From Flavobacteriaceae bacterium YJPT1-3 (GTDB lineage: Bacteria > Bacteroidota > Bacteroidia > Flavobacteriales > Flavobacteriaceae): a stretch of DNA of 64,000 nucleotides. Position 1 is the stretch's first letter; each line of letters opens with the position of its first letter. Under the pieces are notes generated by a model, which was not told where the DNA came from, ran no database searches, and was given only the letters and a program-made list of their open reading frames with translations. Below, in pieces: positions 7,962-16,326 of this stretch. The position numbers and the translations under genes are program-made. The stretch spans positions 434,001-498,000 of the forward strand of contig CP123444.1 of the NCBI GenBank assembly GCA_029866965.1, given 5' to 3'.

Positions 7962-8852
7962 TTAATAATTCCACATATCGCTTTCGAGGTTGCGAATTTC
8001 TTCTTTCAGGCGTTGTGCCTCCAGAAGTTGCATCATCGAGTTTTCTGCGATATACTCTTTCACCTGACGATCTCCCTGAACATTGTCTACCCGGTAGATC
8101 ATGCCGTTAAATCGTCTGGAATTGAGCAGATGATCATAGGAGATGGGCTTGGACGAATTCGCATTATTAAATGCTTTAGCTTCATGCAAGACCTCTCGCG
8201 CTCCCGGGAACCAAACCCAGAAGAGGGGGATCATTTGAACATTTTCATCATCAATAAAGTTTACGTCAGGTGCGACCGGTGCGATCGCGATCATACGGTA
8301 CTTCAATTCGCCTTGACGTTTGTCGAAATACCACATTCCGCGAATCCAATACTGCTCAATATCTGCAGCCGTGATGTCACGACGGGTGATGAATTGAGGA
8401 TCGATAGGAATACCGGCATTGTACTGTTCGATACCCAGATCAGTAGTGTCAATTTTCGACATCGCTGCTCCAAGATCATCCAGGGTCACCTTTTGAGTAA
8501 AGTACGAATCGGAATAGATAGCGTCTATTTTACCTTGACGAATACCCTTCACCAGTACATCGTACAAAGACCGACGGTCTTGTCCGATATTGATGGTATC
8601 TAAAGGATAGTACAAGGGGAAATTGACACGCTCATCCAAATCAACGACTTCCCAGACATTCTTAGACCACAGGACGTCGCGTGAGTCGACATACCCGTAG
8701 GGTAAGGGCTCATCGTTGTCATTGGCAACCTGCTCCTCCGTTTTATCAAACATTTCTTCAGGAGTGGTGGCATTGAGGATATTTACCTGACCAAAAGCCA
8801 GTGCACCCATCAATAGCATGCTGCATCCTAAAAATATACGCTTCAAATTCAT
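7962..8852 (-). CDS. gldN: Gliding motility/T9SS protein GldN (PorN)
   Basis: Periplasmic component of the type IX secretion core, 296 residues, with an N-terminal signal peptide ending near ALAFGQ. In characterised systems GldN/PorN forms the outer-membrane-associated ring with the lipoprotein GldK/PorK. The sequence has the family-typical run of Trp/Tyr-rich beta segments (QYWIRGMWYFDKRQGELKYR, and IPLFWVWFPGAR). It is the last gene of gldK-gldL-gldM-gldN, 10 bases after gldM, and is followed by a strong terminator. Confidence 0.93.
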   Translation of the reverse strand: MNLKRIFLGCSMLLMGALAFGQVNILNATTPEEMFDKTEEQVANDNDEPLPYGYVDSRDVLWSKNVWEVVDLDERVNFPLYYPLDTINIGQDRRSLYDVLVKGIRQGKIDAIYSDSYFTQKVTLDDLGAAMSKIDTTDLGIEQYNAGIPIDPQFITRRDITAADIEQYWIRGMWYFDKRQGELKYRMIAIAPVAPDVNFIDDENVQMIPLFWVWFPGAREVLHEAKAFNNANSSKPISYDHLLNSRRFNGMIYRVDNVQGDRQVKEYIAENSMMQLLEAQRLKEEIRNLESDMWNY

Positions 8853-8862
8853 AATTGTTTTA

Positions 8863-10392
8863 TTAGTTGGTCAATTCAACAAATACAGGCGATACTTTCT
8901 TAAGCTTGTAGCCCGAGTTGCCGGCAATTTTGGCTTCGATATCAAAAATCTGCACCGTAGAACCGCGCTTAGCACGCTGCAATACCGACTTCGCTCGTGA
9001 GTCTAAACGGTTTCCGTTTACCTCAACGGTAGCCTGACCGTCTACCTTCATCTTAAATCCGGTAACGTTCAATTTTAAGTCAAAATCAAAATCAGGTAAG
9101 GCTGCAGAGATCGTAGAGATCTCGAGTCCGTTACGTTGCATTTTTACAATATCCATCTCACCACGTACAGCACCCACCGGTCTTGGAATATCCTTGATAC
9201 GGAAGGTTTTGTTATCGCTTACGGTTTCTCCACCGGGCAGCTTACCGCTTACCTTGATGGTCACCTCACGACCTTTGACGCTAGTCACGTTCATCAGGTA
9301 GTTACCGGCACCACCGGTAGCTTTAAGACCGGGAGCATTGGCGCTCACATTACCCACACCTGGAATGGAGATGGTCATCGGGTTATCCACCCCACGATAT
9401 ACTACATTCATCTTATCCGCAGAGATAACTGCAGAATTCGGTTTTGGGATTACCGCATAAGAGCTCTTAATAGGAATGCTCTTTTGCTCTTCGCCTTCGG
9501 TATACTTCAATTCTCCAAGAATCTCTTTCTCTCCTACACTACCTGCGGGGAAATCAAGTACGACCTGACCGGCTTCTAGTTTATCTACTTTTTTACCGTT
9601 GATCACTACTTCGTCAAAGGTTAATGAAGAATCAAAACGACCCAGTACAACTTTCCCTTTAAAGTTCTCTCCATTAAAGAAAGCCGTCTTTTCAGGAACA
9701 ACGATCGCCTGGTAGTTACTTAAGGAAACTTCACTTTCCAGCTGGCCTTGCAATAATCCGGAGAATACTGCTGACTGAGCCGCACGGATATCGTTCTGCA
9801 TTTGTGTAAAACGCGTGATCGACGCTGCCATGGGGTAGCCTTCAAAGTTGTAGTTTAACCAGTCTTGAGTAGCCCCTTCATTGGTTTTTACCGGACTTAA
9901 ATCAAAGTTCGATTGAACGGATTGATTCAGCTCGCTGTCACCAAGAATAGCGGCCATTTTGGTCTTGTACTCTTCAATCTTGCTTAAGAACTCCTGACCT
10001 TCTTTGGTTGGGCGGTCACCGGTAAACCAGTACTCGTCCAATACATCAGAACGGTTCATTTGCGCATAACGCGATTGATCTACATCAGCTGTAACCGTAG
10101 CTCGTACTTCACCAATGTAGTTGAATAGTTCATCAGAAACTTCCTTCACCTGCTTCGCTTGTTCAAGCAGCGGGGTATATTTCTCACTCTGCTCTACCGC
10201 TTTTTGCTCTAGACCTTCCAGTGAGATTTCGTTTCCATCTTCCAAGCGCTCGTTGGAGGCTTGAAATTTTTTGTCAAATATTCCAAATGCATTCAACACT
10301 TCCGTATCGACGGTCATTGCGATCATTGCAATGAACACCAGATACATCAGGTTGATCATTTTCTGTCTTGCGGATGTTTTTCCTCCTGCCAT
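8863..10392 (-). CDS. gldM: Gliding motility/T9SS motor protein GldM (PorM)
   Basis: A 509-residue inner-membrane protein with one N-terminal helix (MINLMYLVFIAMIAMTVD, about residues 12-29) and a long periplasmic part. GldM spans the periplasm as a dimer, couples to GldL in the membrane and contacts the GldK/GldN ring. The N-terminus MAGGKTSARQKMINLMYL is characteristic. The beta-rich C-terminal domains (VVYRGVDNPMTISIPGVGN and the final FDIEAKIAGNSGYKLKK) match the D-domain architecture. Spacing of about 50 bases to gldL and 10 bases to gldN fits one operon. Confidence 0.95.
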   Translation of the reverse strand: MAGGKTSARQKMINLMYLVFIAMIAMTVDTEVLNAFGIFDKKFQASNERLEDGNEISLEGLEQKAVEQSEKYTPLLEQAKQVKEVSDELFNYIGEVRATVTADVDQSRYAQMNRSDVLDEYWFTGDRPTKEGQEFLSKIEEYKTKMAAILGDSELNQSVQSNFDLSPVKTNEGATQDWLNYNFEGYPMAASITRFTQMQNDIRAAQSAVFSGLLQGQLESEVSLSNYQAIVVPEKTAFFNGENFKGKVVLGRFDSSLTFDEVVINGKKVDKLEAGQVVLDFPAGSVGEKEILGELKYTEGEEQKSIPIKSSYAVIPKPNSAVISADKMNVVYRGVDNPMTISIPGVGNVSANAPGLKATGGAGNYLMNVTSVKGREVTIKVSGKLPGGETVSDNKTFRIKDIPRPVGAVRGEMDIVKMQRNGLEISTISAALPDFDFDLKLNVTGFKMKVDGQATVEVNGNRLDSRAKSVLQRAKRGSTVQIFDIEAKIAGNSGYKLKKVSPVFVELTN

Positions 10393-10439: not shown

Positions 10440-11102
10440 TTATACAGTAGCTCCATTCAAGGTTTGACGGGTACCCATAGCAGAAAGCATTCCGCCATAT
10501 ACGCCGTTCAAAGAAGAAAGGTTAGTCGCCAGGCTTTCCATTTGCTTGGTCAATTGAGAAGCATGAGCAACTACTTGCTCGTTCACCTCCGCCTGACGGC
10601 TAGTAGATTCTACCTGTACTTTATAAAGGCTGTTCAATGATTCCATCTGAGCCGCAGCTAGGGCTAATTCTTCGCTGTACTTCTTCGTAGAGTTCATTGC
10701 TTCTGCAGTTGGAGACATACTCTTGGCTGCACCTTCAAAATTCTTGATGCTTTCGCTCAAGCTGCTCATCAATTCAGAATCGATGCGCGCTTCTTTCAAC
10801 ATATCGTCTAATTTCTTAGAAAGAATACCTTCTGCATCCTGATCTGCTTCAATAAGACCCTGACGAACATTAGACTCTCCTCCTGCTAATTCAGGATACA
10901 CTAAAGTCCAATCCAGTTCGTCTCCTTGCTTTTCGAAAGCAGAATACATAAATACGAGGGCCTCAACGATCATACCTGCAGTAAGAATTGCAGAACCTCC
11001 CGGCCAGTGTTGAATTTTAAATAGGGCACCAACGATTACGATTGCTGCACCCATTCCATAAACGAAATTTGTAGTCGAAATTTTTCCTTTTTGTTTTGCC
11101 AT
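10440..11102 (-). CDS. gldL: Gliding motility/T9SS motor protein GldL (PorL)
   Basis: A 220-residue cytoplasmic-membrane subunit of the proton-driven rotary motor. Two helices fill residues about 12-28 and 37-56, joined by the conserved turn LFKIQHWPGG. Glu47 lies in the second helix (GMIVEALVFMYSAF) and corresponds by position to the proton-path glutamate described for GldL. A long helical cytoplasmic domain follows (residues 80-215). The gene lies 75 bases after gldK; I see no clear separate promoter in that gap. Confidence 0.95.
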   Translation of the reverse strand: MAKQKGKISTTNFVYGMGAAIVIVGALFKIQHWPGGSAILTAGMIVEALVFMYSAFEKQGDELDWTLVYPELAGGESNVRQGLIEADQDAEGILSKKLDDMLKEARIDSELMSSLSESIKNFEGAAKSMSPTAEAMNSTKKYSEELALAAAQMESLNSLYKVQVESTSRQAEVNEQVVAHASQLTKQMESLATNLSSLNGVYGGMLSAMGTRQTLNGATV

Positions 11103-11177: not shown

Positions 11178-12548
11178 TTAATTAGGATTTCGGTTTAGGT
11201 TGATCTTTTTGTCAACACCCATATAGTCTTGCACGGTTCGGAAGCCAATGTAGCTACGTGCACTATCTGCGTATTCATAATCTCGTGTACTCACTTGTAA
11301 GAAATAAGCTACATCCTTCCAGGATCCTCCTCGCACTACTTTACGTTGGTTAGACGCGTCGTTTACGTTCGGATTCATGGTCGAAAGGTACTCGTATGAA
11401 TTAGGGTCATAAGAAGAGGCTACCCACTCAGAGACGTTACCGGCCATGTTATACAGGTTGTAGTCGTTGGGTTCGTAGGCATCTGCTTCTACGGTATATA
11501 AGGCCTGATCTGCGGCATAGTCACCACGGAGCGGCTTAAAGTTAGCCATAAAGCATCCCCGGTCATTCTTTGCATAAGGACCTCCCCATGGGAATGTCGC
11601 ACCTTGCAGTCCGCCACGGGCGGCATATTCCCACTCGGCCTCAGAAGGCAGACGGAAACGGTTGACAAAATCGCGGTTACGCTCTTTTTGATAGGCATTT
11701 TTATATAAGGTTCTCCACTCACAGAAAGCCTTGGCTTGCTGCCAGGACACTCCTACCACAGGATACTCGTCGTAGGCGTTGTGCCAGAAGTAATCGTTGT
11801 GCATGGGTTCGTTATACGAATAAGCGAAATCTCTGATCCAGGTGGTCGTATCCGGATAGATCTTAACCACTTCGGTCTTGATGTGATCCGAACGACGGGC
11901 TCCGCGTTCTGCTTTCGCAGCAGCTTCCATATCCAGGTAGCGGTAACGGAATTCCAGCTTGTCTACGTCAATGGTACGCTGACCGTTGTACGACTCTTCA
12001 ATAGGAATGTACATGGTGTCCATCACCTCAACGTAGTACTCATCAGGAAACTCAGCGGTATCCCAGATTAAGTCTACCTCTTTATTGAGACGACGACCTT
12101 CAAAGCCTTCGCTAAAGCTGTAATAATTCTCATACATGTACTTGTCGTAGGGAGTCATGTTCTCCGGATCGGTGTCCATAAAGGCAAACTCGCCAATGGT
12201 ACCGTTTCCTGGAGTTTCTCCCAGCTCTTCGGCGAAAATTGCCAAGCGCATACGTACAATAGAATCTTTAACCCAATCTACAAACTGTCGGTACTCGGCA
12301 TTTGTAATTTCCGTCTCATCCATATAAAAAGATCGAACGGTAACTGTTTTTGTTGGGGCGTCATTCACTTTGGCAATATCTTCATCACTTTTACCCATGA
12401 TGAAAGACCCGCCTGAAATTAAGGACATCCCGAAAGGCTTTTCAGGATTCCATTTCTTTCCTTTTGCGCCCACGAGTTCTCCGCGGTCGCTACGGCCACA
12501 AGAGGCCAGAAGAAAAGCAATTGCAACAATTGGGATTAGCTGCTTCAT
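11178..12548 (-). CDS. gldK: Gliding motility/T9SS lipoprotein GldK (PorK)
   Basis: Outer-membrane lipoprotein of the T9SS ring, 456 residues. The signal peptide ends in a lipobox (FLLASC, Cys17). The rest is a formylglycine-generating-enzyme/sulfatase-modifying fold, seen in SFYMDETEITNAEYRQFV, GVSWQQAKAFCEWR, RLPSEAEWEYAARGG and VVRGGSWKD. In GldK/PorK the fold is structural. It is the first gene of gldKLMN, with its own promoter about 32 bases upstream. No porP-like gene is present next to it, unlike in Porphyromonas. Confidence 0.95.
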   Translation of the reverse strand: MKQLIPIVAIAFLLASCGRSDRGELVGAKGKKWNPEKPFGMSLISGGSFIMGKSDEDIAKVNDAPTKTVTVRSFYMDETEITNAEYRQFVDWVKDSIVRMRLAIFAEELGETPGNGTIGEFAFMDTDPENMTPYDKYMYENYYSFSEGFEGRRLNKEVDLIWDTAEFPDEYYVEVMDTMYIPIEESYNGQRTIDVDKLEFRYRYLDMEAAAKAERGARRSDHIKTEVVKIYPDTTTWIRDFAYSYNEPMHNDYFWHNAYDEYPVVGVSWQQAKAFCEWRTLYKNAYQKERNRDFVNRFRLPSEAEWEYAARGGLQGATFPWGGPYAKNDRGCFMANFKPLRGDYAADQALYTVEADAYEPNDYNLYNMAGNVSEWVASSYDPNSYEYLSTMNPNVNDASNQRKVVRGGSWKDVAYFLQVSTRDYEYADSARSYIGFRTVQDYMGVDKKINLNRNPN

Positions 12549-12579
12549 AGTTTTTAGGTTAAATCTGGTTTTAGGGCGG

Positions 12580-12610
12580 TAAACGTATTCATTTATTCGA
12601 TAAAAAACAA
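12580..12610 (-). promoter_or_regulatory. Promoter of gldKLMN
   Basis: On the minus strand TTG (12610-12608), a 20-base spacer and TACGTTTA (12587-12580) match the Bacteroidota -33/-7 consensus TTTG-N19-TAnnTTTG with one mismatch in the -7 box. Transcription would begin about 25 bases before the gldK ATG. Confidence 0.55.
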
Positions 12611-12651
12611 CTTTTTATCGATAAAATGCCCTTTTTCTTTAAGTTAAACTG

Positions 12652-13818
12652 TTAAATTTCGTTTTTGAGTCTTGCATTTAACCATCTTTCAGGATACTCT
12701 TGGTCAATGGCTTTTAAGTAATCCTGGTAGGTGCATGGTAATAACGTGTGTCTTTTTAATTTATTATTAACAGACGAAATAAATGGCAACTCGATCCACC
12801 AGCGTTCGGTCTTGTTGCTCTTGTAGAATATGAGTACCTCATCTTCTATAGGTACCTGATAGGTGAAGAAATTATTTTTTACGTCGCTTAGGTTTTCATT
12901 GGCGCGATAATTCACCCCTTCAATGAAGTACCAAAGCATCTGAGCGATCAGCATGGCCGAGCGGTCTTCCTGGTCGCCATTCTTGAATTCAAACAAACCA
13001 AAGATGGACACGCGGTCGCTTATTCCGGCATAGCGCGCTATGGCGCAGGCCTCCTTTCCATCGAAGCCATTTGGCACCACATGATCTTTCATGGGCAGTG
13101 CTCCCGAATGGATTGCGCCCAGGTCAAAAGAAACAATATCCGCGTCCCGCATGGCCGGTTCGACCAAACTGAGATCTGCCGCCACATTACCTAGTCGATA
13201 GGCATCAAAATGAAGCCGTTCGACCAGATCGATCTCTTCCTGCGGATTAAAATAGGTCTGAAAGCCGACATTGGAGTAATTAAAGAGATTATAGGGTTTG
13301 TCGACAATCATCTTTCCCACGTAGGATTGATTGGTAATGGGTTCGCTGGAGTCTCCCATATCGAAACGGGAATCTACATTGACCAGATTGACCATCTGAT
13401 CCAGTTCATCAAAGGCGCGATAAAGGGCGTAGGTAAGGTCCTGGCTACCGCCTAGAACGATCAGAACACAATTCTTTTTAAAGAGGTCGATGGCAATAGA
13501 CTTAAGCGCATAATAGGTATCCTCTACTGTCTCCCCTTTCTCGATATCTCCAAGGTCCACGCAGGGCTCGGTCCAATTCCCGGGAAATAGGCTGTAAAAA
13601 TTTTTTCGGATGCTATTAAAGTCGACGGACTCCTGCAAGTGGTTAACATCCTTTCGATTTTCGCGTACTCCTACCAAAGCGATTCTCGCCTTGTTGAGTT
13701 CAGGCAGTCCGTGCTGCTGACTGTGGATGTTGATCTTGGAACCTAAGGCTCCGGGGTGTAGTAATTGAATATGTGCTAAAGCTGCTCCGTCAACCGGAAC
13801 CAAAACTTCGTAGGCCAT
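12652..13818 (-). CDS. Arginase-fold protein with degenerate metal site (annotated as formimidoylglutamase)
   Basis: A 388-residue ureohydrolase-superfamily protein, longer than a typical arginase or formimidoylglutamase (about 300-330). The three signature regions are recognisable but altered. The GGDHS motif reads GGSQD (123-127), so the His ligand is Gln. The DAHxD motif reads DSRFD (149-153), so the His is Arg. The SxDxD motif reads SFDLG (230-234), so the second Asp is Gly. Three of the six manganese ligands are therefore missing, and ordinary guanidine hydrolysis is unlikely. The ATG follows the topA stop directly (TAAATG), and gldK lies 103 bases downstream. I recall this gene beside gldK in other flavobacteria, which suggests a conserved but non-canonical role. 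Confidence 0.8.
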   Translation of the reverse strand: MAYEVLVPVDGAALAHIQLLHPGALGSKINIHSQQHGLPELNKARIALVGVRENRKDVNHLQESVDFNSIRKNFYSLFPGNWTEPCVDLGDIEKGETVEDTYYALKSIAIDLFKKNCVLIVLGGSQDLTYALYRAFDELDQMVNLVNVDSRFDMGDSSEPITNQSYVGKMIVDKPYNLFNYSNVGFQTYFNPQEEIDLVERLHFDAYRLGNVAADLSLVEPAMRDADIVSFDLGAIHSGALPMKDHVVPNGFDGKEACAIARYAGISDRVSIFGLFEFKNGDQEDRSAMLIAQMLWYFIEGVNYRANENLSDVKNNFFTYQVPIEDEVLIFYKSNKTERWWIELPFISSVNNKLKRHTLLPCTYQDYLKAIDQEYPERWLNARLKNEI

Positions 13819-16326
13819 TTACTTCTTTTTTGCTTTGGTGGCTTTTTTCCTGGTCGTCTTTTTCTTTGTTGCTTTTTTCTTGGGTGCTTTCTTAGCGAGT
13901 ATGTCTTTGATCTCCTCTAAAGTGAGTTTGGCAGCCTCTACCGTTTTGGGCAGTTCGATCTTGGTTTTTCCCTTGATGATATTGGAACGACCCCAGCGGG
14001 CTTTCTCCACCCGAATTCCCTCTTCTTCAAAGTTAAGTAGGATCTTGTCTTTGTCCTTCTGTTTTTTCTCCTCGATCAACTGTTCGATATCTTCCTGGCT
14101 CAGATTATCAAAATCATATTTTTTATTGACATTGATGAAAGTACCGTCCCATTTGATAAAAGGACCAAAACGCCCCACGCCCTTTTGAACGGGTTTGTCT
14201 TCATAGTGGGCAATAGGCGCATCCGCTTTTTGCTTCTCCTTAATATACTCAATGGCTTCGTCAAGATCAACCTCCAGAGGATCCCGTCCCTTGGGGAGGG
14301 ATATGAATTTTTTACCGTGACGCACATAAGGTCCGTAACGTCCGTTATTCACCTGCACTTCGTCGCCTTCAAAGGTCCCGAGATCGCGAGGCAACTTGAA
14401 CAGGTCCATCGCCTCTTCATAGGTAATGGTGTTCAATTGCTGATCCGGACCCAGACTTGCAAATTGCGGTTTTTCATCGTCCTCTACAGAACCAATCTGA
14501 ACCATGGGTCCGTATTTACCCAAACGTACACTCACCGGTTTACCGGTTTTAGGATCTTCGCCCAGGATACGCTCGCCGACCTCTCGGTCTGCATTTTCAG
14601 CAACGTCCTTCACGTGGGGATGAAAATCTTTGTAGAAGGACTTCATCATTTTGGTCCACTCTTCATTCCCTTCGGCGATTTCATCAAAGTCTTCTTCTAC
14701 CTTAGCGGTGAAGTTGTAATCCAGTATGTTCTCGAAATGAGTAACCAGGAATTCATTGACGATGACCCCAGTATCGGTAGGAACTAATTTTCCTTTATCC
14801 GAGCCCACTGTTTCAGTCAGCTTTTCCTGCTTGACCGATCCGTTTTTAAGGGTCAGGACATCATATTTACGCTCGGTGCCTTCTACGCTTCCTTTTTCTA
14901 CGTATTTCCTGTTTTGAATCGTGGTGATGGTGGGTGCGTAAGTGGACGGCCGACCGATACCCAGCTCTTCTAATTTCTTGACCAAAGACGCTTCCGTATA
15001 GCGATACGGAGGTCGGGTAAATCGTTGGGTAGCGGTAATCCATTCATTATCCAGAGCCTCCCCTTTTTTCAAGTCGGGTAATAAGCCTTGCTCTTCCTGA
15101 TCTTCATCATCACTTCCTTCCAGATAAACGGTCAAGAATCCTTCAAAGGTCAAGATCTCTCCATTGGCTGTGAAGTGTTGTTCCACCTGATCGGATTCGA
15201 TCTCCACATGAGTACGCTCTAATTTAGCATCGCTCATCTGCGAGGCGATGGCTCGTTTCCAGATCAAATCGTACAACCGGGCCTGATCGCGATCAATATT
15301 GACCTGATGCCTTGAAAAGTCGGTCGGCCGGATGGCCTCATGCGCTTCCTGCGCTCCCTTGGTCTTTCCTTTATAATTACGTTCCTTATGGAATTCGCTA
15401 CCGTAGGCTTCTTCAATCTCTTTTTTGGCCGCCTTCTTGGCATCCACCGAAAGGTTGACGCTATCGGTTCTCATGTAAGTGATCAGTCCGGCTTCATACA
15501 GCCGCTGGGCCATGGTCATGGTCTTACTTACCGAGAAATAAAGCTTTCGCGAAGCTTCCTGTTGTAAGGTAGAGGTGGTGAATGGAGGCGCAGGCGATTT
15601 CTTTGCCGGCTTCTTGGTGAGCTTGCCCACTTTAAATTTCGCGGAAGCGTTGGCCTTCAAGAATTCTTGAGCCTCTGGTAACGTATCAATATTCTTAGGC
15701 AGCTTGGCCTTAAACGATTTTCCTTCCTGTCCATTGAATTGCGCATCCACGCGATAGGATGCGGTAGGGGTAAAATTCTGGATTTCCTTTTCACGCTCAA
15801 CGATTAATCGTACGGAAACCGATTGCACCCGACCGGCGGAAAGTCCGCCTTTTACTTTTCTCCAAAGTACCGGAGAAAGTTCGTAGCCTACCAGGCGGTC
15901 AAGCACCCGACGTGCTTGTTGCGCATTGACCAGATTGTAATCGATCTTTCTAGGGTTTTCAATGGCCTTGAGTATGGCATTTTTAGTGATCTCATGAAAA
16001 ACGATACGCTTGGTATTTTCTTCTTTGAGATCCAATTCTTCTGCGAGGTGCCAGGCGATGGCTTCTCCTTCCCGGTCCTCATCACTGGCCAGCCAAACCA
16101 TTTCCGCTTTAGCTGCCAAATCTTTCAATTTCTTGACTACGGCCTTTTTGTCTTTAGAAACGACATACTTAGGGGTAAAATCTCCGTCCACATCAACACC
16201 CAACTCTTTAGAGGGCAAATCGGCGATATGACCAAAACTGCTTTCCACTTTAAAATCCTTTCCCAGAAATTTCTCTATGGTTTTTGCCTTTGCCGGTGAC
16301 TCTACAATTACTAAGTTTTTTGCCAT
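13819..16326 (-). CDS. topA: DNA topoisomerase I
   Basis: Type IA topoisomerase of 835 residues that relaxes negative supercoils. The TOPRIM domain opens the protein (LVIVESPAKAKTIEKFLG, then the acidic motif SDEDREGEAIAWHLAEE). The catalytic Tyr lies in AGLITYMRTDSVNL near residue 300. After the core there are several repeat modules of the topoisomerase C-terminal type (KYGPMVQIGS, RYGPYVRHGKKF, RFGPFIKWDGTF) instead of four-Cys zinc fingers. The last 30 residues are a Lys/Ala/Thr-rich tail likely to bind DNA non-specifically. First gene of topA-arginase fold, adjacent stop/start. Confidence 0.97.
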   Translation of the reverse strand: MAKNLVIVESPAKAKTIEKFLGKDFKVESSFGHIADLPSKELGVDVDGDFTPKYVVSKDKKAVVKKLKDLAAKAEMVWLASDEDREGEAIAWHLAEELDLKEENTKRIVFHEITKNAILKAIENPRKIDYNLVNAQQARRVLDRLVGYELSPVLWRKVKGGLSAGRVQSVSVRLIVEREKEIQNFTPTASYRVDAQFNGQEGKSFKAKLPKNIDTLPEAQEFLKANASAKFKVGKLTKKPAKKSPAPPFTTSTLQQEASRKLYFSVSKTMTMAQRLYEAGLITYMRTDSVNLSVDAKKAAKKEIEEAYGSEFHKERNYKGKTKGAQEAHEAIRPTDFSRHQVNIDRDQARLYDLIWKRAIASQMSDAKLERTHVEIESDQVEQHFTANGEILTFEGFLTVYLEGSDDEDQEEQGLLPDLKKGEALDNEWITATQRFTRPPYRYTEASLVKKLEELGIGRPSTYAPTITTIQNRKYVEKGSVEGTERKYDVLTLKNGSVKQEKLTETVGSDKGKLVPTDTGVIVNEFLVTHFENILDYNFTAKVEEDFDEIAEGNEEWTKMMKSFYKDFHPHVKDVAENADREVGERILGEDPKTGKPVSVRLGKYGPMVQIGSVEDDEKPQFASLGPDQQLNTITYEEAMDLFKLPRDLGTFEGDEVQVNNGRYGPYVRHGKKFISLPKGRDPLEVDLDEAIEYIKEKQKADAPIAHYEDKPVQKGVGRFGPFIKWDGTFINVNKKYDFDNLSQEDIEQLIEEKKQKDKDKILLNFEEEGIRVEKARWGRSNIIKGKTKIELPKTVEAAKLTLEEIKDILAKKAPKKKATKKKTTRKKATKAKKK

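Follow-up and report, generated by a model that had tools for sequence, protein, structure and literature searches.

What a protein with a ureohydrolase fold might do beside the genes of the T9SS motor was the question raised by one gene in the window (the whole stretch of 64,000 nucleotides that was analysed). A first-pass annotation of the sequence had described its product as an arginase-fold protein that had lost three metal ligands, and had proposed that it is a conserved pseudoenzyme near the secretion motor. The protein is referred to here as the pseudo-ureohydrolase, and the features that bear on the question are as follows.

12652..13818, minus strand: pseudo-ureohydrolase gene, 388 amino acids, predicted cytosolic (open reading frame, domain and model evidence)
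13441..13443, minus strand: codon for Q126, where the canonical ligand is His (alignment)
13360..13374, minus strand: codons for D149-S150-R151-F152-D153, canonically DxHxD (alignment)
13117..13125, minus strand: codons for D232-L233-G234, canonically DxD (alignment)
13147..13161, minus strand: codons for E220-P221-A222-M223-R224, of which E and R are class-invariant and never occur together in canonical enzymes (alignment)
12655..12942, minus strand: C-terminal part, residues 293-388, with W296, F331, R339-W340-W341, C362 and Y367 (alignment and model)
13819..16326, minus strand: topA, its TAA stop followed directly by the pseudo-ureohydrolase ATG (sequence and profile match)
12549..12651, minus strand: 103-base gap between the pseudo-ureohydrolase gene and gldK, containing a 9-bp hairpin (sequence)
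11178..12548, minus strand: gldK, T9SS ring lipoprotein (TIGR03525, 597.9 bits)
10440..11102, minus strand: gldL, T9SS motor (TIGR03513)
8863..10392, minus strand: gldM, T9SS motor (TIGR03517)
7962..8852, minus strand: gldN, T9SS ring (TIGR03523)

The TAAATG junction with topA described in the first-pass annotation was read directly from the sequence (AAG-TAA-ATG), and its placement of the gene directly before gldKLMN was borne out: gldK starts 103 bases downstream, and gldK, gldL, gldM and gldN each scored above the cut-off of the respective NCBIfam equivalog model. The gap before gldK contains a perfect, AT-rich 9-bp inverted repeat, CGATAAAAA-ACAAC-TTTTTATCG, at 12598-12620. A 106-base stretch that includes this hairpin folded better than shuffled versions (z -2.6), and the hairpin is possibly a transcript-level element.

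The only Pfam match of the 388-residue protein was PF00491 Arginase (39.7 bits; cut-off 22). It consists of a ureohydrolase domain (residues ~20-306) followed by some 80 further residues that form a C-terminal extension (~307-388). Inspection and hydropathy revealed neither a signal peptide nor a membrane stretch, and the protein is therefore predicted to be cytosolic. Its nearest named relatives, at 59-66% identity, come from Dokdonia, Aquimarina and Leeuwenhoekiella, which places the window within Flavobacteriaceae or close to that family. The AlphaFold2 model (pLDDT 85.6, pTM 0.89) had the three-layer ureohydrolase fold that the first-pass annotation had suggested looking for by modelling, and its best structural match was the formiminoglutamase of T. 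cruzi (4myn; Z 32.4, rmsd 2.4 over 275 residues, spanning 20-306). Beyond this match, residues 307-388 form further strands and helices, and canonical ureohydrolases have nothing equivalent to this part. Searches with residues 293-388 gave no match among solved structures by sequence and no useful match by Foldseek/VIA (best Z 3.3, with a weak model of this part: pLDDT 73, first 22 residues below 50); an unmatched extension does not, in any case, establish that the fold is new.

Loss of the metal site across class Bacteroidia

In the alignment, GGSQD, VDSRFD and SFDLGAI of the protein correspond to GGxH, DxHxD and SxDxD of the ureohydrolases. At the six positions that canonically hold H, D, H, D, D and D, the window protein has Q126, D149, R151, D153, D232 and G234; three of the six ligands of the two-metal site are thus lost, and the residues named in the first-pass annotation as changed (Q126, R151, G234) and kept (D149, D153, D232) were exact. 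To this we could add 216 Bacteroidia orthologues. None of them retained five or six canonical ligands; 31 retained four, 149 three, 17 two, 16 one and 3 none, so that no homologue with an intact site at this locus, which the first-pass annotation had named as a refutation, was found among them. The same alignment procedure was applied, for comparison, to 17 canonical relatives, among them the two paralogues from the window's own genome: 12 showed H-D-H-D-D-D, four had Asn at position 126 and one had Asn at 153. Asn in place of the first His also appears to be the wild-type state of T. cruzi formiminoglutamase, judging by an entry for its N114H variant.

Whether the three changes are themselves conserved, a point raised in the first-pass annotation, had a divided answer. 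The loss of ligands is conserved throughout the 216 orthologues, whereas the substituted residues for the most part vary: 160 of the 216 have Q in column 126, but columns 151 and 234 rank only 299th and 313th of 388 in conservation and are thus free to drift. In several lineages (loci L209-L211, L226, L227 and L242) the entire stretch that surrounds the metal site has been eroded or has disappeared, while the C-terminal signature and the invariant residues described below are retained. Since the whole site has been lost in some lineages and the C-terminal signature kept, the protein works without a metal cluster. Two of these loci (L209 and L210, in genomes G183 and G275 of family f5) encode copies of ~277 amino acids in which the metal-site region is gone; these genes are convergent with murF and have a GldJ-like gene alongside. 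That the two-metal hydrolase function has been lost is established about as firmly as sequence data allow, and the description of the protein as a conserved pseudoenzyme thus extends to the whole class.

The gene was present in 117 of the 120 genomes sampled from the window's own family (all 100 of the near-complete ones) and, across class Bacteroidia, 372 of 396 genomes matched the class-wide profile. In a FastTree phylogeny all 61 orthologues included clustered apart from canonical formimidoylglutamase-type relatives (support 0.87, stem 0.75). Close pairs gave dN/dS values of about 0.01-0.05, a sign of strong purifying selection; the values are similar to those of topA, with gldK lower in some pairs. 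Reduced genomes retain the gene along with the gldKLMN operon. Gene decay was ruled out by the dN/dS values, the intact frames and the invariant residues. The class-wide family of pseudo-ureohydrolases is real. A literature search, with subscription papers mostly outside its reach, found no publication on the gene and no reports of a deletion, a phenotype or an interaction.

Gene order and distribution relative to the T9SS

Nearly all loci read in the window's own family have the order topA-gene-gldKLMN; in one closed genome of this family (G023) the gene has moved and SprA is still present. Outside the family the order is topA-gene-porP-gldKLMN, the intervening gene before gldK being PorP in 5/5 tested. 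Among the matches listed, 66 class genomes had the gene and gldN on the same contig; in 64 of these the two were neighbours and ran the same way. The figure spans 22 families and derives from best-scoring matches, in which families with typical sequences are over-represented. In five families (f2, f3, f4, f8 and f9) the pseudo-ureohydrolase lies away from gldKLMN.

Within the locus, the tightest coupling is to topA. Over 67 loci of the family the median gap to topA was 3 bases, with the two genes touching or overlapping in 20, compared to about 120 bases to gldK.

In a phylum sample of 392 genomes, GldK above its cut-off and clear orthologues of the pseudo-ureohydrolase were both confined to class Bacteroidia. 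Within the class, the gene was absent from 7 of 12 GldN-negative genomes and from 17 of 384 GldN-positive ones (Fisher p 8e-7, uncorrected for phylogeny); this co-distribution partly reflects common ancestry. Exceptions were found in both directions. Four families (f10, f11, f12 and f111) have the T9SS without the pseudo-ureohydrolase, and in the loci read from f11, f12 and f111 topA is not beside porP-gldKLMN and the T9SS proteins are divergent. Conversely, genome G462 lacks GldK, GldM, GldN and SprA and has kept an intact pseudo-ureohydrolase. A second genome, G555, lacks the T9SS markers tested as well, but it is a draft that is 95% complete with its copy of the gene near a contig end, and so proves little. 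The exceptions rule out a strict core part of the T9SS and, with it, a universal core role. The secretion-motor link put forward in the first-pass annotation has partial support: it is favoured by the order of the genes and their distribution, and a core role is opposed by the coupling to topA, by families f10, f11 and f12, and by G462.

Some further loci may be recorded here. In G462 (L244; f3) the pseudo-ureohydrolase gene adjoins rmuC. Another genome of the same genus (G121; L178, one contig) has GldK, GldM and GldN and is missing SprA; this lineage is apparently losing the T9SS stepwise. In G488 (L275:5400-14066), gldL, gldM and gldN are present, the place expected for porP and gldK is taken by an opposite-strand open reading frame of 2698 amino acids, and the GldK match is restricted to a C-terminal piece, which looks like an inversion or an insertion into gldK. 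Four loci from T9SS-bearing families without the pseudo-ureohydrolase (L276, L280, L281 and L282) have a gene of ~185-187 amino acids upstream of porP, which may be the counterpart of PGN_1678 from P. gingivalis; that hypothetical gene shares its regulation with porPKLMN (PMC6994654). PGN_1678 is not claimed to be the pseudo-ureohydrolase: no copy of the latter was found in the T9SS-bearing families f11 and f12, where different small genes precede porP.

The same observations bear on the best-surviving alternative, that the pseudoenzyme has a general cytosolic role (connected, for example, with TopA or a metabolite signal) and that its adjacency to gldKLMN is an old neighbourhood, not a shared function. 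The nearly fused start and stop codons of the gene and topA in most family loci would suit such a role, as would the retention of the gene in G462 without a T9SS and its position away from gldKLMN in five families. However, topA is universal, yet the gene is confined, as far as sampled, to the class that bears the T9SS, and the order topA-gene-(porP)-gldKLMN has been retained over many families. On balance a general role is a serious but rather doubtful candidate.

Invariant residues and the enzyme name

Across the 216 orthologues E220, R224, G251, G265, W296, F331, W340 and C362 were conserved in all or nearly all sequences, and Q187 in 99%. The invariant set, written as motifs, comprises Q187, E220-P-x-x-R224, N250-G251, R262-Y-A-G265, W296, R339-W-W, C362 and Y367, and its new members cluster in the C-terminal half of the protein. 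The combination of E220, R224, W340 and C362 is missing from the canonical relatives, as is the C-terminal extension. It could be imagined that these residues (E220, R224, W296, W340, C362 and others) have replaced the metal site with new chemistry or a small-molecule site. Complete or almost complete conservation of polar and aromatic residues in 216 sequences is more than would be expected of a surface coevolving with one partner, and Q187, which comes directly after a strand ending at residue 186, was inherited from relatives of the formimidoylglutamase type. On the other hand, the residues form no known motif, the extension is unmatched by sequence or fold, and conserved W, F, G and P are compatible with a structural or interface role too; a new site is accordingly regarded as unlikely.

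The name formimidoylglutamase, which the first-pass annotation had warned against, is wrong for this protein. Against the hutG equivalog model TIGR01227 it scored 44.6 bits, with a cut-off of 229.15, and it lies between topA and gldK and not in a histidine-degradation operon. The window genome has a second copy that is a true HutG, scoring 258.8 bits, with all six ligands and overlapping the end of hutU. A canonical protein of the formimidoylglutamase type with six ligands was also seen alongside the pseudo-ureohydrolase in G538 (L263). Metabolic models of Bacteroidota that take over an annotation as formimidoylglutamase or agmatinase would be misled whichever role is true, and the undeserved enzyme name has caused the gene to be overlooked.

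Altogether, the window genome encodes two canonical ureohydrolases besides the pseudo-ureohydrolase, which would be compatible with the latter serving as a subunit without catalysis in a mixed ureohydrolase complex, in the way that MetCb accompanies MetCa, a precedent with the same fold (PMC11271267). This is very improbable, given that no linked ureohydrolase gene occurs in the loci read and that no other arginase-family protein was found in two genomes that carry the pseudo-ureohydrolase, G043 (99% complete) and G004 (93%); these genomes rule out an obligate canonical partner. Least credible of all is an active formimidoylglutamase or agmatinase that uses an altered or single metal: the fold, the weak hutG match, the 31 orthologues with four ligands and the Asn of the T. 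cruzi enzyme would favour it, but scores fall far under the equivalog cut-offs, five ligands occur in none of the orthologues, those with none to two carry the remaining marks of the family, a separate hutG follows hutU, and the family members missing the entire site rule out an active enzyme with altered ligands.

Proposed role and comparison with known systems

The explanation we favour is that the protein descends from an enzyme of the formimidoylglutamase type, from which it would have diverged no later than the origin of class Bacteroidia, and that the dead ureohydrolase fold was repurposed as a cytosolic, non-catalytic protein. Its invariant set would provide the working surface, binding a protein or a small ligand. 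The weakest step is that the partner would belong to the T9SS machinery, most plausibly as the cytoplasmic part of GldL, with the pseudo-ureohydrolase aiding assembly, coupling or regulation of the motor as an accessory and not as a core part. To this explanation as a whole, a dead and repurposed ureohydrolase acting as an accessory of the T9SS motor, we assign a probability of roughly 0.5.

Its components differ in strength. The protein probably has a non-enzymatic job, one that has seemingly gone unstudied. A repurposed fold that acts by binding is the most likely mode; MetCb and PorK/GldK are precedents, as is PorX, which is reported to bind PorL, for a cytosolic protein attached to the motor. 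The T9SS motor as partner is the simplest reading of the gene order and distribution and is plausible, at about even odds. We would advance more tentatively, at somewhat less than even chances, the specific version in which a dead formimidoylglutamase is an unrecognised, near class-wide cytosolic accessory of the T9SS/gliding motor that attaches to GldL/GldM on their cytoplasmic face (or to PorX) and relays a metabolic or assembly signal to the motor. The assembly and control of the inner side of the T9SS motor are poorly known; if the pseudo-ureohydrolase acts on the motor, cytoplasmic control of the T9SS becomes testable with one deletion. If it does not, it still shows, across a whole class, an enzyme whose metal site disappeared early and which then became near-universal.

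Among known systems, HutG (TIGR01227; PDB 3m1r, 4mxr/4myn and 1xfk) is the nearest by sequence profile and has the same fold (Z up to 32.4). HutG-type proteins also have Q187 and, in several relatives, an S-S-D-A-P segment in common with the pseudo-ureohydrolase. Unlike HutG, the latter lacks the His, His and Asp ligands, has the C-terminal extension and has no histidine-degradation neighbours. The arginase-like protein of Trypanosoma brucei (PDB 4rhm) has likewise lost the metal site from a ureohydrolase fold, and the title of a mutant entry (S149D/R151H/S153D/S226D) implies that it too has Arg at the His position of DxHxD. It is, however, not a close relative (Z 23.7), is eukaryotic, does not match the C-terminal extension and has no operon context.

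MetCb/MfmB (PDB 8x3g, 8snf and 8ryi) is a bacterial pseudo-ureohydrolase in which five of the six ligands are changed and which binds a protein (PMC11271267). Its active paralogue is encoded next door, whereas for the window protein a paralogue partner is neither linked nor always present in the same genome, none being found in G043 or G004. GldK/PorK, an FGE-like enzyme fold without activity that serves as a structural hub (PMC12421860), resembles the pseudo-ureohydrolase in being a dead enzyme fold encoded in the same T9SS gene cluster; it differs in its fold and in being an outer-membrane lipoprotein, the pseudo-ureohydrolase having no signal peptide or transmembrane stretch. PorX is cytosolic and is reported to bind PorL (PMC5005315). 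Pseudo-ureohydrolases are thus already known, in MetCb and in the T. brucei arginase-like protein, and the Bacteroidia family adds another.
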